The position numbers and the translations under genes are program-made. Positions 44,620-50,613 of a stretch of 64,000 nt of DNA are shown here, one piece after another. Origin of the DNA: Terriglobales bacterium. Its GTDB lineage: Bacteria; Acidobacteriota; Terriglobia; Terriglobales; Acidobacteriaceae. Each line of letters starts with the position of its first letter. Within the stretch, counting starts at the first letter, position 1. Location: positions 248,001-312,000 of the forward strand of contig JAOAPE010000008.1 in assembly GCA_025462725.1 (NCBI GenBank), written 5' to 3'. The notes beneath the pieces were generated by a model. That model saw only the letters and a program-made list of their open reading frames with translations. It was not told the origin of the DNA and searched no databases.

Positions 44620-45924
44620 TCACCCTGCGACAGGTACGCCCATCTTTTTCGGAAGCATTTCGCCGATACGCTTCATCTGGGCTCCAACTCCGCGCAGTTT
44701 CTCTTCGATATTCTCGTATCCGCGATCGATGTGGTAAACACGGTCGATGATCGTCTCGCCATCGGCAACGAGTGCAGCCAACACCAATGACGCTGATGCC
44801 CGCAGGTCTGAGGCCAATACAGCCGCAGAACTCAATTGGGTCTTGCCGCGCACAATCGCGCGGCGTCCCTCGATCTTGATGTTCGCGCCCATGCGGACCA
44901 GTTCTTGCGCATGCATGAAGCGGTTCTCGAAGATGTTCTCTGTGATAATCGACGTTCCTTCGGCCTGGGTGGCAAGCGCCATGAATTGGGCCTGCATGTC
45001 TGTGGGAAAACCCGGATGCTCTTCGGTATTCACGTCCGCGGCTTGCAGGTTTCCGTCTGACATGACACGCACGCCATCGCCAGTCGTCCGGATCTTCACG
45101 CCGCACTCTTCCAGCTTTTGCAGCAGAGCGGAGATGTGTCGCGGATCGCAACCGGAGACCATCAAGTCGCCGCCCGTCAGTGCGCCAGCAATGATGAATG
45201 TTCCCGCTTCAATGCGGTCAGGGATAATGCGATGCTTCGCGCCGTGAAGTTTCGAAACGCCTTTGATCCGGATCGTTGAAGTCCCTTGGCCTTCGATCTT
45301 CGCGCCCATCTTGTTAAGCAGGTCGGCCAAGTCAACGACTTCGGGTTCGCGCGCACAATTCTCCATGATGGTCTCGCCGTCGGCGAGCGTTGCTGCCATC
45401 ATCAAGTCTTCGGTTCCGGTCACGGTGATCTTGTCGAAGTTGATCTGAGCGCCCTTTAGGCGGTCAGTTTTGGCTTCGATGTATCCATGTTCCTGCGTGA
45501 TCACCGCGCCCATTTTTTCCAAGCCTTTGATATGCAGATCAATAGGACGCGCACCGATAGCGCATCCGCCGGGCAGGGAAACCCGCGCTGTTCCCATTCG
45601 CGCTACTAGAGGACCAAGAACCAGCGTGGAAGCGCGCATCGTCTTTACGACTTCATATGCAGCTTCAGGATTCGTGCTCAGGTTCTTGCAGTTGATGGTG
45701 GTGCGATGATGCGCACGGCCATATCCGAGCTCGACTTCCGCGCCGAGTGACATCAACAGCTTTCGCTCTGTCTGAATATCGCGGACATCGGGAATATTTT
45801 CCAAAATCACCGGTTCGTCGGTGAGGATGGCCGCGGCCATCGCCGGCAGTGCAGCATTCTTTGCGCCGCTTATGCGCACTGTTCCCAATAGTGGATTACC
45901 GCCGCGGATCACGAACTTGTCCAT
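44620..45924 (-). CDS. murA: UDP-N-acetylglucosamine 1-carboxyvinyltransferase
   Basis: This 434-residue enzyme transfers enolpyruvate from PEP to UDP-GlcNAc, the first committed step of peptidoglycan synthesis. The N-terminal [21 protein letters not shown] block is standard. The active-site Cys121 lies in [10 protein letters not shown], so fosfomycin sensitivity is expected at this residue. It lies 88 bp downstream of murQ in the same direction, so recycling and synthesis genes may share a transcript. Confidence 0.97.
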
Positions 45925-46012: not shown

Positions 46013-46975
46013 CTAATCCATCTCTTCTATGGCACGGCGAACGTTACCTTGCACAGCTTCCAAGCGCTGCTGCGCTTCCATCACGGTAACTCCTGTTTTC
46101 AGCGATACCAACGCAACTGGCACGTGATTGCTGGCGATTTTCAATGCCTTTTCTGCCGCCGCACGATCCACTCCCGTCGCTCGCATCAGGATGTTAATCC
46201 CGCGCTCCACCAGTTTCTTGTTCTTCAGGTGAACGTTCACCATCAGATTGCCATAGACATATCCCAATCGCGTGAACGCGCCAGTGGTCAGCATGTTGCA
46301 GATCAACTTCTGCGCCGTACCTGCTTTCATGCGCGTCGAGCCCGATACCACTTCCGGGCCGACTTCCACTTCTATCTCGATGTCCGCAACGCGACCAAGT
46401 TGAGAATCTTTGTTGCAGGAAATCCCAACCGTCACAGCTCCGCGGCTCTTGGCATATTCCACTGCGGCGATCGTATAAGGTGTACGGCCGCTCGCTGCGA
46501 TGCCGACAATCACGTCGTTTCGCGTGGGCCTGCGCTTGGCGATATCTGCCGCGCCCAACTCGCGTGAGTCTTCGTTGAACTCTGCCGCGCTCGCCAGCGC
46601 TCTGGGACCCCCCGCCATCACGTATTGAACCTGGTGCGGGTCAGCGTTGAAGGTAGCCGGACATTCCGACGCATCAATCGCAGCGATTCTCCCGCTGGTT
46701 CCTGCGCCAACATAGATCAGCCGTCCGCCGTTGCTCAGCGCGTGCGCAATGGCTTCGATGGCTTTGGCCACGTTGGGCAGCGCGCGTTTCACGGCAGCCG
46801 CGACTTTGGCGTCTTCAGCATTGATGATCTGCGCGATCTCCAGTGCCGACTTTGTGTCGAAGTTCGCTGACGACCGGTTTTGTTGCTCTGTCCCCAAATG
46901 TCCAAGGTCTACTACGCCATTAGTTGATGATGAACTCGTTTTCTTCTTCGTAGCTGCCATTGCTCCCATTTCCAT
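46013..46975 (-). CDS. murQ: N-acetylmuramic acid 6-phosphate etherase
   Basis: This 320-residue SIS-domain protein cleaves the D-lactyl ether of MurNAc-6-phosphate to give GlcNAc-6-phosphate, a key step in cell-wall recycling. Blocks: LIYVGAGTSGRIAAIDASECPATF with the catalytic Glu, then VGIAASGRTPYTI and GSTRMKAGTAQKL. The N-terminal 20 residues are a Lys/Ser-rich extension. Three ATGs lie at the start; the first (46975) has an AAGG site. It begins 5 bp after the serine hydrolase gene, so the two are co-transcribed. No MurR regulator or MurP/PTS gene is in the window. Confidence 0.96.
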   Translation of the reverse strand: MEMGAMAATKKKTSSSSTNGVVDLGHLGTEQQNRSSANFDTKSALEIAQIINAEDAKVAAAVKRALPNVAKAIEAIAHALSNGGRLIYVGAGTSGRIAAIDASECPATFNADPHQVQYVMAGGPRALASAAEFNEDSRELGAADIAKRRPTRNDVIVGIAASGRTPYTIAAVEYAKSRGAVTVGISCNKDSQLGRVADIEIEVEVGPEVVSGSTRMKAGTAQKLICNMLTTGAFTRLGYVYGNLMVNVHLKNKKLVERGINILMRATGVDRAAAEKALKIASNHVPVALVSLKTGVTVMEAQQRLEAVQGNVRRAIEEMD

Positions 46976-46980
46976 TCGCC

Positions 46981-48081
46981 TTAAGCTAACGCCTCAATGA
47001 TTGCATCGTGAACTGCCGGACGCACCTGTTTGATTGCTTGCGATTGATTGTCCGGCCAAGTGCGGTTTGTAAGTAGAACGATTGATAAATCGCGGGTGGG
47101 ATCGATCCACAGCGAAGTTCCAGTGTACCCAAGATGTCCGTAGCTGTGCGTTGAAAAATGCTTTCCTGATTGCGAAGGCGCCGAGGGAGTGTCCCATCCG
47201 AGTGTGCGTGACGTGCCTGCCGGGAGCGATTCACGCGTGGTAAACAGCTTCACCGTCGCCGGATCGAACAAAGGAGCGCCGACCCGCAACATGCATTGCG
47301 CAAACTTCGTGACATCCAGCGCCGAGCCGAATAGGCCGGCATGCCCGGCAACGCCACCCATCACACTCGCATTCTCGTCATTTACTTCGCCTTGGATCGG
47401 GCGTTTGCGAAAGTCCACTGCGTCCAGCGTGGGCGGGATATGTTGGCGCATTTCTGTGGGAGGACAGAACAGAGTATTGGCCATACCGAGCGGCTTGAAG
47501 ATCTCGCGCGCGCAAATCGAATCCAGCGATTCCTTCACGATTCGCTCCAGCACAACTCCTAACACAATGAATCCAATATCGCTGTAAGCTGCGCGGCTCA
47601 TCGGATCAGCTTCGAGTGGAACCGCGAATGCGGCACGCAGCAGTTCATCCCTTGTCGAGACATCTTCAAAGAATTTGACATGAGAGGGAAGCCCTGACGA
47701 ATGTGCCAGGAGCATCCTGAAGGTGACGTCACGCTTCCGCGCATCTGCGCCCTCTGCGAACTCCGGCACAATTTCGCAGACCCGCTGCTCCAATTGAAAT
47801 TGCCTGTGCTCGTGGAGCAGCATGGCCATTGCAGTTGTCGCAATGACTTTGGTTAGAGACGCCAGATCGAAAACAGTTTCAGGAATCACCGTGGGCGAAT
47901 TCTGGTCGTATGTGAAATGTCCAAAGCTTTCGGCCGTGACCAACTCTCCGCCGACGCTTACCGAAATGGACGCGCCTGGGAATGCTCGGTTAGCAATGGC
48001 CTGGTTGAGCAGGGAACGGACCCGCTCGAATCGCGCATTGTCGCCGATCCTCGGCGCTGTTTCAGGCTTGTTCACCAGCAC
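46981..48081 (-). CDS. Cytosolic beta-lactamase-fold serine hydrolase (AmiE-like)
   Basis: This 366-residue penicillin-binding-protein-like hydrolase has SLTK (Ser75-Lys78), YSDIG for the Tyr motif, and HLGYTG for the third motif. There is no signal peptide, unlike its paralogous domain in the divergent fusion gene. Shared blocks with that domain are MGGVAGHAGLFGSA, LGWDTPS and TGTSLWIDP. The fold family includes the Bacillus N-acetylmuramyl-L-alanine amidase AmiE (YbbE). The position immediately before murQ supports a role in muropeptide cleavage. The substrate is inferred. Confidence 0.87.
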   Translation of the reverse strand: MLVNKPETAPRIGDNARFERVRSLLNQAIANRAFPGASISVSVGGELVTAESFGHFTYDQNSPTVIPETVFDLASLTKVIATTAMAMLLHEHRQFQLEQRVCEIVPEFAEGADARKRDVTFRMLLAHSSGLPSHVKFFEDVSTRDELLRAAFAVPLEADPMSRAAYSDIGFIVLGVVLERIVKESLDSICAREIFKPLGMANTLFCPPTEMRQHIPPTLDAVDFRKRPIQGEVNDENASVMGGVAGHAGLFGSALDVTKFAQCMLRVGAPLFDPATVKLFTTRESLPAGTSRTLGWDTPSAPSQSGKHFSTHSYGHLGYTGTSLWIDPTRDLSIVLLTNRTWPDNQSQAIKQVRPAVHDAIIEALA

Positions 48082-48192
48082 TCCCGCATCTCACAAAGAT
48101 ACCTCATTTCCTCCGTGCCACTTCTCCGTCCAAAGTGCTAATCTCATCTTCTCCGGATTCAAAACTGAACAGGTTCTACAAACGTCCAATCA

Positions 48193-50613
48193 ATGAAAAG
48201 AGTTTTCGCCTTAGTCCTCGGCATTCTCCTCCTCGCTCCGCAAACGTTTTCACTCACCGCTCCGGCCAAGCCCAGGACGAAGACCATAAAAAAAGACCCG
48301 CTCTCAACGGACAAACGCTTCAAGTCCACTGACGCGGTCATTGATGATTACGTAAAGAAGAATCTGATTCCCGGCGCAGTCCTGCTGGTCGGACAAAAAG
48401 GGAAGATTCTCTATCGCAAGGCCTACGGCAACCGCTCACTGCAACCCACTGTCGAGCCCATGACCGTGGACACGATCTTTGATATCGCATCGCTCACAAA
48501 GTGTGTTGCGACCACCACCAGCGTCATGCGGCTACTCCAGCTTGGCCAGATTCGCCTTAACGATCCTGTCTCGCGGTATCTCCCGGAACTGGGCAACAAC
48601 GGCAAAGAGGACATTACTATCCGGCAGTTAATGACGCACTATTCCGGGTTACGTCCTGATCTTGATCTGCGGCAGCCATGGAACGGCAGTGATACGGCGA
48701 TGCGCATGATCATTGCGGAAAAGCCCACCTCTCCGGTTGGTGCGCAATTCGTTTACAGCGATATCAATTTTGAGATCCTTGGTTTTCTCGTTGAACGGCT
48801 CTCCGGCCTTTCGCTCGACAAGTACTCATCCGTCCACGTGTTCCAGCCCCTGAAGATGACTCGCACTTCCTACCTACCGCCGCATGACTGGATCAAAAAC
48901 ATCGCGCCCACACAGTTTGACGAACAACATGTCATGCTGCGCGGTATCGTTCACGATCCCACCGCTCGACGCATGGGCGGAGTCGCGGGACATGCCGGAT
49001 TATTCTCAACCGCAAGCGATCTCTCAATCTTTGCGCAAGCTCTCTTGAGCGGAGACAAGATTCTCAGTCGCGCAGTCATCGAAAAGATGTCGACGCCGCA
49101 AACGCCGCCCACTTCCACCAGTGTGCGCGGGCTAGGATGGGACATTGACACACCCTTCGCCAGCAATCGCGGAGAACTACTTCCTATTGGTTCCTTCGGC
49201 CACACGGGCTTTACCGGCACGTCCTTATGGATTGATCCATTCTCGAAGACTTATGTCATCCTTCTGACGAATTCCGTTCATCCCAACGGGCCGCTGCCCG
49301 GTGGCCCTACTGTCGCGCTGCGCACGAAAGTAATGACCGCGATCACCGCTGCTCTGAAGCTCGACGTTGACCTCGATAGCCCGACGATGAAGAAGGCCGC
49401 CTCGATTACGGGATACAACGAAGCTGCAGTCGGTAGCCATCGTCCGGTGAGTCGCAACGGAAAAGTCTTCAACGGGATTGACATGCTCGAGAGCAGCAAC
49501 TTCGAGCAGATTCGCAACAAGCGCGAAACGACTCGCATCGGTCTGCTCACGAATCAGACGGGCATCGCCCTCGATGGGCGCCGCACGATTGACGTTCTCG
49601 CCAATGCACCGGGTGTAAAGCTCACTGCGATTTTCAGCCCGGAACACGGGGCAGTCGGCGAGCAGGACACGACTGACATCAAACAGAATCCCGCTGACGC
49701 AAAGACTTCTGTTCCTATCTATAGCGTTTACGGCACCGGCGATGCATCGCGACGCCCTTCTGCGGAGGTACTGAAAACCCTCGACGCGGTCGTCATCGAC
49801 ATTCAGGACGTCGGCGCTCGCTTCTACACCTATGAAACCAGCATGGGATACTTCCTCGAAGCCGCCGCCAGCGCGGGAATTGAAGTCTATGTCCTCGATC
49901 GCCCCAATCCCATCGGTGGCGTGCTCGTGCAAGGCCCCGTTGCGAATACTGAATTCTCGTTCGTGAACTACCACGCCATTCCGCCCCGACACGGCATGAC
50001 GCTCGGTGAACTCGCCCGCTTCTACAACACCGAACGAAAGATCAATGCCAAGTTGACGGTCATCCCTATGCAGGGCTGGATTCGCGGGGACTGGTTCGAC
50101 GCTACGAATGAGATGTGGGTGAATCCTTCGCCCAACATGCGCAACCTGAACGAGGCCACGCTCTATACCGGTGTGGCGTTGGTTGAAGGAACGAATGTCT
50201 CCGTAGGGCGCGGCACGGATACTCCGTTCGAAGTCGTCGGCGCGCCGTGGATGAAATCGCGAGAGCTTGCGGATTATCTCAACGGACGGCAGATCGCAGG
50301 AGTCCGCTTTGTGCCGACAACTTTTACTCCCGCATCGGCGGTATATGCGAAGCAGCTTTGCAACGGGGTCAACGTCATCGTCACTGATCGCTACGCGCTA
50401 GACGCACCGGAACTGGGCGTCGAACTGGCATCAGCGTTCATTAAGCTTTATCCGAAAGATTACAAACCGGAGAAGATGATTCGGCTGCTCAGTAACACCG
50501 CAGCCTTCCAGTCTTTGCTCTCCGGAACCGATCCACGCCGTATCGCCGACGATTGGCGTGACGACCTCGACCAGTTCATGCAATTGCGCAGCAAGTATTT
50601 GATTTACAAATAA
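48193..50613 (+). CDS. Secreted fusion: beta-lactamase-fold (AmiE-like) hydrolase + NamZ/DUF1343 muramidase
   Basis: This 806-residue protein has a signal peptide (1-20). Domain 1 (about 45-395) is a serine hydrolase with SLTK (100-103), YSD (188-190) and HTG (337-339). Domain 2 (about 425-806) is DUF1343, the exo-beta-N-acetylmuramidase NamZ family: GLLTNQTGIAL, FSPEHGAVGE, DIQDVGARFYTYE, VLDRPNPIGG, RHGMTLGELA, NPSPNMRNL, VEGTNVSVGRGTD, FEVVGAPW. In Bacillus these activities are separate proteins (AmiE and NamZ) encoded with MurQ. The fusion would strip peptide and release MurNAc in one periplasmic polypeptide. It is divergent from the serine hydrolase-murQ operon across a 111-bp gap. Confidence 0.92.
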   Translation: MKRVFALVLGILLLAPQTFSLTAPAKPRTKTIKKDPLSTDKRFKSTDAVIDDYVKKNLIPGAVLLVGQKGKILYRKAYGNRSLQPTVEPMTVDTIFDIASLTKCVATTTSVMRLLQLGQIRLNDPVSRYLPELGNNGKEDITIRQLMTHYSGLRPDLDLRQPWNGSDTAMRMIIAEKPTSPVGAQFVYSDINFEILGFLVERLSGLSLDKYSSVHVFQPLKMTRTSYLPPHDWIKNIAPTQFDEQHVMLRGIVHDPTARRMGGVAGHAGLFSTASDLSIFAQALLSGDKILSRAVIEKMSTPQTPPTSTSVRGLGWDIDTPFASNRGELLPIGSFGHTGFTGTSLWIDPFSKTYVILLTNSVHPNGPLPGGPTVALRTKVMTAITAALKLDVDLDSPTMKKAASITGYNEAAVGSHRPVSRNGKVFNGIDMLESSNFEQIRNKRETTRIGLLTNQTGIALDGRRTIDVLANAPGVKLTAIFSPEHGAVGEQDTTDIKQNPADAKTSVPIYSVYGTGDASRRPSAEVLKTLDAVVIDIQDVGARFYTYETSMGYFLEAAASAGIEVYVLDRPNPIGGVLVQGPVANTEFSFVNYHAIPPRHGMTLGELARFYNTERKINAKLTVIPMQGWIRGDWFDATNEMWVNPSPNMRNLNEATLYTGVALVEGTNVSVGRGTDTPFEVVGAPWMKSRELADYLNGRQIAGVRFVPTTFTPASAVYAKQLCNGVNVIVTDRYALDAPELGVELASAFIKLYPKDYKPEKMIRLLSNTAAFQSLLSGTDPRRIADDWRDDLDQFMQLRSKYLIYK

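Follow-up and report, generated by a model that had tools for sequence, protein, structure and literature searches.

A single gene in a 64,000-nucleotide stretch of a Terriglobales bacterium (Acidobacteriaceae; contig JAOAPE010000008.1, positions 248,001–312,000; hereafter the window) encodes an S12 serine hydrolase domain and a NamZ exo-muramidase domain in one polypeptide. This protein is probably a secreted two-enzyme peptidoglycan scavenger that serves the salvage of N-acetylmuramic acid (MurNAc) independently of the phosphotransferase system (PTS), a route that in one clade of the family appears condensed into a polypeptide that both cuts and imports. The two-domain fusion is widespread and its architecture is already in print; its function is newly put in context here. 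The more interesting result is a triple fusion, in which a sodium symporter precedes S12 and NamZ in the same frame. The window protein itself lies outside the clade of triples, and physical coupling to uptake is plausible in that clade only. Acidobacteriota are a large, mostly uncultured phylum, and the fusions provide Rosetta-stone evidence for the S12, symporter and kinase genes of its MurNAc pathway. A first-pass annotation of the window had described the two-domain fusion; its observation is confirmed and its interpretation partly supported.

Domain anatomy of the S12–NamZ fusion

The fusion open reading frame (ORF) begins with ATG. Its parts were located by Pfam, hydropathy and the predicted local distance difference test (pLDDT) of an AlphaFold2 model:

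48193–50613, forward strand: fusion gene, 806 amino acids (aa), with secretion segment, S12 (AmiE/YfeW-like) domain, linker and NamZ (ORF, Pfam, AlphaFold2)
48193–48252, forward strand: signal-peptide-like N-terminus, MKR plus a hydrophobic core, residues about 1–20 (hydropathy)
48331–49308, forward strand: Beta-lactamase/S12 domain, residues 47–372 (Pfam PF00144, E = 3e-67)
49405–49458, forward strand: low-confidence linker joining both enzymes, residues 405–422 (pLDDT <50)
49537–50148, forward strand: NamZ_N domain, residues 449–652, with P-E-H-G at 483–486 (Pfam PF07075, E = 2.5e-75)
50161–50607, forward strand: NamZ_C domain, residues 657–805 (Pfam PF20732, E = 2e-44)

Both NamZ domains are essentially complete: NamZ_N scores 252.8 bits (cut-off 26.9) over profile positions 1–202 of 203, and NamZ_C 152.5 bits (cut-off 25) over positions 2–152 of 152. 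The motifs reported in the first-pass annotation can all be read in the protein. The S12 half contains SLTK (100–103, with S100 and K103), YSD (188–190, with Y188 and D190), GHAGLF (266–271) and HTG (337–339, with H337), and the NamZ half contains the DUF1343 motifs TNQTG, SPEHG, DIQDVGAR and GRGT. The single signal peptide claimed there is likewise borne out, as judged by a hydropathy script and not by a dedicated predictor: the only segment above threshold spans residues 4–18, directly after MKR.

An AlphaFold2 model built from 33 sequences (mean pLDDT 81.4, predicted template modelling score (pTM) 0.56) has runs of pLDDT below 50 only at residues 1–36 and 405–422, and depicts two folded enzymes joined by a flexible tether. 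In a fold search the best agreement of the NamZ half is with 4k05 (Z 46.1, root-mean-square deviation 2.3 over 372 residues, 34% identity); it also matches 4jja, a solved DUF1343 protein (Z 38.4), and together with the two Pfam domains these matches support its identity as NamZ. The S12 half matches many beta-lactamase-fold enzymes (Z 32.5–38.6 among the matches listed). Two further proposals of the first-pass annotation fared less well. Channelling between the two enzymes finds no support in a model with a flexible linker and a pTM of 0.56, and the idea that the amidase acts first was read from the order of the domains, from which an order of reactions does not follow.

Distribution and genomic linkage of the fusion

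To place the fusion we used an even draw of 100 genomes from the window's family, Acidobacteriaceae, and a sample of 297 Acidobacteriota genomes. NamZ_N occurs in 84 of the former and 232 of the latter. In the family, 78 of the 90 NamZ_N matches lie in open frames of at least 780 aa, counted from stop to stop, and contig ends truncate some of the remaining 12. All 31 family loci that were read, the best-scoring of the 90 matches, have S12 motifs in frame ahead of NamZ, so the fusion is neither chance nor an assembly joint. The 30 loci read from the phylum draw, which are among its best-scoring matches, are mostly single NamZ proteins; S12 motifs precede NamZ in frame in five. In two further long frames from the phylum search (L069 and L070) no S12 motifs were read before NamZ, and we left both out of the fusion count. 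Outside the phylum, four of the 60 matches listed, of 1765 records, are single pieces with coverage of at least 83%; these lie in Cupriavidus and Burkholderia plasmid records, and Pfam confirms the fused form in the two Burkholderiaceae plasmid records checked. The S12 domains of 14 fusions, two from Burkholderiaceae included, form one clade (support 96/91). Thus, the S12–NamZ fusion is usual in Acidobacteriaceae and found also in other Acidobacteriota and in Burkholderiaceae, and its frequency in the family, its occurrence in Burkholderiaceae and the single S12 clade make it look old.

Gene neighborhoods tie the fusion to murQ, as the first-pass annotation had proposed for the window, and to a sodium symporter. 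These counts come from scans for NamZ, symporter and murQ in the 100 family genomes, joined by script from coordinates transcribed by hand. Of the 76 genomes that have both murQ and NamZ, 45 have the two within 8 kb of each other, and in 42 of these murQ is divergent and upstream as in the window. Of the 78 genomes that have both symporter and NamZ, 23 have them on the same strand and at most 8 kb apart, seven fused cases included. At least one link is present in 63 of the 71 genomes that have all three genes.

Two side observations concern these neighborhoods. A second murQ copy, 44–51% identical to that of the window, is present in 18 of the 100 family genomes, and 17 of these 18 fall, by eye, among the 23 with a symporter linked or fused to S12–NamZ. 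On the Burkholderiaceae plasmids (L075, 6728–7927; L076, 6580–7857), the S12–NamZ gene comes after genes for a polysaccharide deacetylase and for a putative glycosyl hydrolase (DUF4015), another possible partner.

The architecture has a precedent. A 2008 survey tabulates one DDPept-DUF1343 protein (YP_439122.1) among 254 S12 proteins (PMC2605481), with the same two Pfam families in the same order as in the window; there DUF1343 is of unknown function, and the passages on DDPept-DUF1343 name no transporter. RmNag3 of Rhodothermus marinus likewise combines an exo-hexosaminidase, a beta-lactamase domain and a signal peptide (PMC6987092), but has GH3 in place of NamZ and its beta-lactamase domain at the C-terminus. 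The first-pass annotation had named, as grounds for doubt, that the fusion might be common and already characterised: the fusion is indeed common, and PMC2605481 already lists its architecture, but a search of open-licence PMC text found no paper characterising it.

Probable activity of the S12 domain

The S12 half resembles Escherichia coli YfeW, whose gene stands in the order murQ–murP–yfeW. YfeW has SNTK, YSD, GHAGLF and HTGWTG where the fusion has SLTK, YSD, GHAGLF and HTGFTG. From the present comparison we defined a working signature for AmiE/YfeW-type S12 proteins (S-x-x-K, Y-S-D and H-T-G plus GHAG[LVF]F), which the fusion carries in full. Y-S-D, GHAG[LVF]F and HTG[FWY]TG are common to the fusion, YfeW and the S12 proteins of MurNAc clusters in Deinococcus, Thermomicrobium and Sphingobium, while GHAG and HTG are absent from AmpC and AmpH. 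Bacillus subtilis AmiE, encoded between murP and nagZ, is reported to be a MurNAc-L-Ala amidase (PMC5061867); the likeness of the S12 half to AmiE is one of description, the sequence comparison having been made with YfeW. Motif set and gene context together suggest that the S12 half is likely a MurNAc-L-Ala amidase. We put it no higher than likely, since the motif rule has exceptions and a tree with YfeW, AmpC and AmpH does not resolve its deep forks (YfeW was flagged as a long branch).

The S12 half could instead be a DD-carboxypeptidase/endopeptidase or an esterase, trimming stem peptides or other groups of the envelope, in which case the fusion would still serve peptidoglycan salvage. The nearest NCBIfam model is the PBP4B equivalog NF002968, with which the fusion scores 144.3 bits, so far under the cut-off of 385 that we do not file it there; the structure neighbors include EstG, EstB, the R61 DD-peptidase and class C beta-lactamases. 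We nonetheless consider this reading improbable. The S12 half has HTG and not KTG, and YSD and not YxN, unlike AmpC and AmpH; its motif set and MurNAc-cluster context are common to several phyla; and B. subtilis amiE, a reported amidase gene, adjoins nagZ and ybbC/namZ (PMC5061867). The first-pass label of AmiE-like thus stands as far as the motifs shared with YfeW and the MurNAc-cluster S12 proteins go, but draws no help from a fold search that lists esterases, beta-lactamases and DD-peptidases alike.

Returning to the amidase assignment, several findings weigh against it besides the PBP4B match and a fold, common to esterases, beta-lactamases and DD-peptidases, by which the search does not separate an amidase from them. 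Neither GHAG nor the exact HTG pattern occurs in the fusions of Cupriavidus and Burkholderia, haloarchaeal S12 proteins in MurNAc-type clusters lack YSD and GHAG, a second S12 protein encoded in the window lacks the HTG pattern, and GHAG is missing from six of 55 triple fusions (see below). Conversely, a Streptomyces clavuligerus S12 protein with the full motif set and a Listeria one with GHAGLF and HTGFTG have no MurNAc gene in the flank seen.

The haloarchaeal loci are of interest in their own right. Plasmids of Halorussus halophilus and Haladaptatus salinisoli (L077, 5992–11242; L188, 8022–13136) have consecutive genes for S12, a hypothetical protein, DUF1343/NamZ and nagZ, and an AnmK gene nearby. 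Archaea themselves have no murein, and these haloarchaea seem, from their gene content, equipped to use bacterial cell-wall sugar.

A proposed PTS-independent salvage route

The first-pass annotation had the fusion feed MurQ, a scheme that leaves out how MurNAc freed by NamZ would be taken up and phosphorylated before it reaches MurQ. Candidates for these two steps lie elsewhere in the window's genome, so that symporter, kinase and MurQ all have candidate genes there. The symporter (PF00474, 143.4 bits, cut-off 22.8; TIGR00813, 228.4 bits, cut-off 184) has as its best PDB match SiaT (5nv9). In SiaT, Ser60, Thr63 and Arg135 hold the carboxylate of sialic acid, and Gln82 binds its glycerol tail (PMC5931594). 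Ser60, Thr63, Arg135, Asp182, Ser342 and Ser345 are kept in the symporter, so that carboxylate-binding and several sodium-site residues are common to both proteins, while Thr58 is changed to Glu, Gln82 to Tyr, Ser343 to Asn and Ser346 to Ala. Because the carboxylate-binding residues are kept and Gln82 is lost, this pattern would fit an amino sugar that is acidic and has no glycerol tail, as is the case for MurNAc. The symporter gene adjoins a kinase gene whose product is most like a MurNAc/GlcNAc kinase (GlcNAc, N-acetylglucosamine). The kinase scores 122.6 bits with PF01869 (cut-off 31.5); its closest solved MurNAc/GlcNAc kinase is 8zo3 (E = 1.8e-35), and with the NCBIfam NagK equivalog it reaches 95.6 bits, under the cut-off of 370. 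A profile search of the genome gave no PTS_EIIC match.

Two described systems resemble this gene set. The B. subtilis cluster murQ–murR–murP–amiE–nagZ–ybbC(namZ) also encodes an S12 amidase, NamZ and MurQ together (PMC5061867), but as separate proteins and with PTS uptake via MurP, whereas the window's genome has S12 and NamZ in one protein. The symporter–kinase–MurQ set in turn matches the PTS-free MurT–MurK–MurQ of Tannerella forsythia (PMC5790795, PMC10465942), the case described in these sources for PTS-free MurNAc uptake. One of these sources presents MurT as a sodium symporter whose operon also contains murK and murQ (PMC5790795), and our likening is to that description; MurT is a separate protein, unlike the fused symporter of the triple clade.

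Further genes may complete the route. One family genome (G019) has the row symporter–murQ–[S12–NamZ]–GH3, and the window's genome encodes a GH3 protein of 651 aa with a secretion-type N-terminus that is 50% identical to the GH3 of that row. On the route that we propose, the window protein would act in the periplasm on peptidoglycan fragments, where GH3 would trim GlcNAc. The S12 half would cleave the MurNAc-L-Ala bond and so remove the peptide, as its YfeW/AmiE-type motifs and gene context suggest, and the NamZ half, to judge from its family, would detach the MurNAc unit at the chain's non-reducing end. The SiaT-like symporter, as a functional counterpart of Tannerella MurT, would then import MurNAc without a PTS; a MurK-type kinase would convert it to MurNAc-6-phosphate, and MurQ would open this to GlcNAc-6-phosphate.

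The symporter might instead have GlcNAc, a disaccharide free of peptide, sialic acid or some other sugar acid as its substrate. Its closest solved relative is a sialic acid carrier, the kinase family includes GlcNAc kinases, and GH20 and nagA lie beside the triple fusion in one genome (G031), so that GlcNAc too is handled there. We regard such a substrate as unlikely, though a real alternative: MurNAc is the expected product of the fused enzyme, the G019 row has murQ between the symporter and fusion genes, and a neutral sugar would not need the carboxylate-binding Ser/Thr/Arg set that is kept. For MurNAc uptake as part of the salvage route there are counterweights of other kinds. Symporter and fusion lie on different contigs in the window's genome, and eight of the 71 family genomes with all three genes show no link. 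The SiaT sodium-site residues S343 and S346 are changed, and the SiaT mapping is one distant pairwise alignment read by eye. PMC5790795 itself calls MurT a sodium symporter once and a major-facilitator protein elsewhere in the passages concerned. Finally, the genome has consecutive genes (L192, 400–4138) for a GH3 that carries no secretion-type N-terminus, for AnmK and for a solute-binding protein of family 5, and this GH3–AnmK pair is a second muropeptide recycling route.

Triple fusions of symporter, S12 and NamZ

The family survey contains eight frames of 1250–1450 aa, seven of which encode symporter, S12 and NamZ in one protein. In the eighth (G099; loci L073 and L157) what precedes S12 is read out of frame, the symporter ending in another frame, and this frame was rejected. 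The triple fusion is thus present in seven of the 100 genomes of the even draw, to which a symporter–S12 frame cut by a contig end (G052) may be added. Pfam finds SSF, Beta-lactamase, NamZ_N and NamZ_C in all seven triples scanned, five of them from the family survey (PF00474, 106.9–157.3 bits). We then scanned GTDB contigs with seven triples as query, keeping the best 80 matches, which gave 79 loci. Symporter, S12 and NamZ lie in one frame in 55 of them, a proportion that is enriched by the choice of query and is not a frequency. The scan overlaps the family draw (e.g., G067 is L104, G020 is L115 and G052 is L138). The carriers belong to Edaphobacter, Granulicella, Terriglobus and Bryocella, and include Terriglobus roseus DSM 18391, Bryocella elongata, Granulicella mallensis, G. 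rosea, G. paludicola, Edaphobacter modestus and E. lichenicola. A search of open-licence PMC full text found no S12–NamZ fusion joined to a symporter.

The triple fusions group in one clade and have conserved active-site motifs. In a FastTree analysis of 79 S12–NamZ sequences, 53 triples form one clade together with L163, which begins at a contig end. Three loci titled Rhodanobacteraceae or Verrucomicrobia fall inside this Acidobacteriaceae clade and are probably misnamed metagenome-assembled genomes (MAGs). Ten rows branch next to the clade, and eight of these have a separate symporter gene directly upstream (L093, L094, L096, L099, L100, L154, L157 and L161); on the short contigs of the other two (L149 and L151) no symporter was seen. 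Among the 55 triples, Ser-Lys, YSD and HTG are each kept in 55 and GHAG in 49 in the S12 domain; PEHG and D-x-QD in 54 each, SPN in 52, LDRP in 51, GRGT in 49 and the TN-motif in 47 in NamZ; and WTD and MSNLS in 55 each, ETSxLT in 54 and GVRV in 53 in the symporter. Four triples are cut or shifted within NamZ (L136, L141, L144 and L167), and some motif misses are such cuts or shifts (L141, L144 and L167); L131, which is uncut, lacks three NamZ motifs.

The joint between symporter and S12 bears on how these proteins would be arranged. A hydrophobic stretch lies there in all 55 triples (hydropathy script), mostly preceded by basic residues and often with an A-x-A-like end, as seen by eye among the sequences listed. 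The enzyme's former signal peptide therefore seems to be retained inside the triple protein. SiaT-type sodium:solute symporters have 13 helices and their C-terminus inside, and one extra helix would thus place the enzymes outside. We conjecture, tentatively, that the triple is a cut-and-import machine, in which the symporter bears the amidase and exo-muramidase on the periplasmic side through an internal helix derived from the signal peptide. In one Acidobacteriaceae clade the symporter gene has been joined in frame to the enzyme gene, and on this conjecture the resulting polypeptide would make MurNAc just outside the inner membrane, at the mouth of the very transporter that imports it. As part of the same tentative reading, a route from separate genes through adjacent genes to one frame may be read from living species.

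The long frames may, however, yield a transporter and an enzyme as separate products, through an internal start or through signal peptidase, so that the fusion would mean equal dosage only. This is a serious possibility, if on balance a doubtful one. The hydrophobic stretch found in every triple resembles a signal peptide, many with A-x-A-type ends at which the internal signal peptide might be cut, and 14 of the 55 have a Met near the joint. Against separate products, the other 41 have no Met within the 30 residues around the joint, a count that covers Met codons and not GTG or TTG starts. One entire clade has also kept the joint open, and the hydrophobic stretch could itself be an additional helix in the membrane. 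An AlphaFold2 model of the T. roseus symporter plus S12 was set aside (mean pLDDT 48.6). If the cut-and-import conjecture is true, the triple is a natural enzyme–transporter fusion, in which local sugar release and capture can be tested in isolates such as T. roseus DSM 18391. SiaT differs from the symporter of the triples in being an unfused carrier, of sialic acid.

In locus L101 (9832–13103), nagA and a GH20 hexosaminidase gene lie on the same strand just ahead of the triple-fusion gene.

Neighboring genes in the window

The fusion gene diverges from murQ and from a second S12 gene, which the first-pass annotation had not mentioned:

44620–45924: murA, following murQ
46013–46975, reverse strand: murQ, N-acetylmuramic acid 6-phosphate etherase (TIGR00274, 353.9 bits, cut-off 302)
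46981–48081, reverse strand: second S12 protein, 366 aa, without a hydrophobic N-terminal segment (ORF, Pfam, hydropathy)
48082–48192, no strand: divergent intergenic stretch of 111 bp from the second S12 gene to the fusion gene (ORF coordinates)

Downstream, a class A beta-lactamase-like gene (PF13354; 50633–51589) follows 19 bp past the fusion gene on the same strand and scores far under the bla_class_A cut-off. As a candidate partner of the fusion it was rejected: among the loci compared it was found elsewhere only in L024 and L031, and many of these loci end soon downstream. The second S12 gene sits between murQ and the fusion gene, just upstream of murQ on the same strand. Its product lacks a hydrophobic N-terminus and is therefore probably a cytoplasmic equivalent of the S12 domain in the secreted fusion. 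A MAG locus (L166) has the same succession of murA, murQ, second S12 and divergent S12–NamZ.

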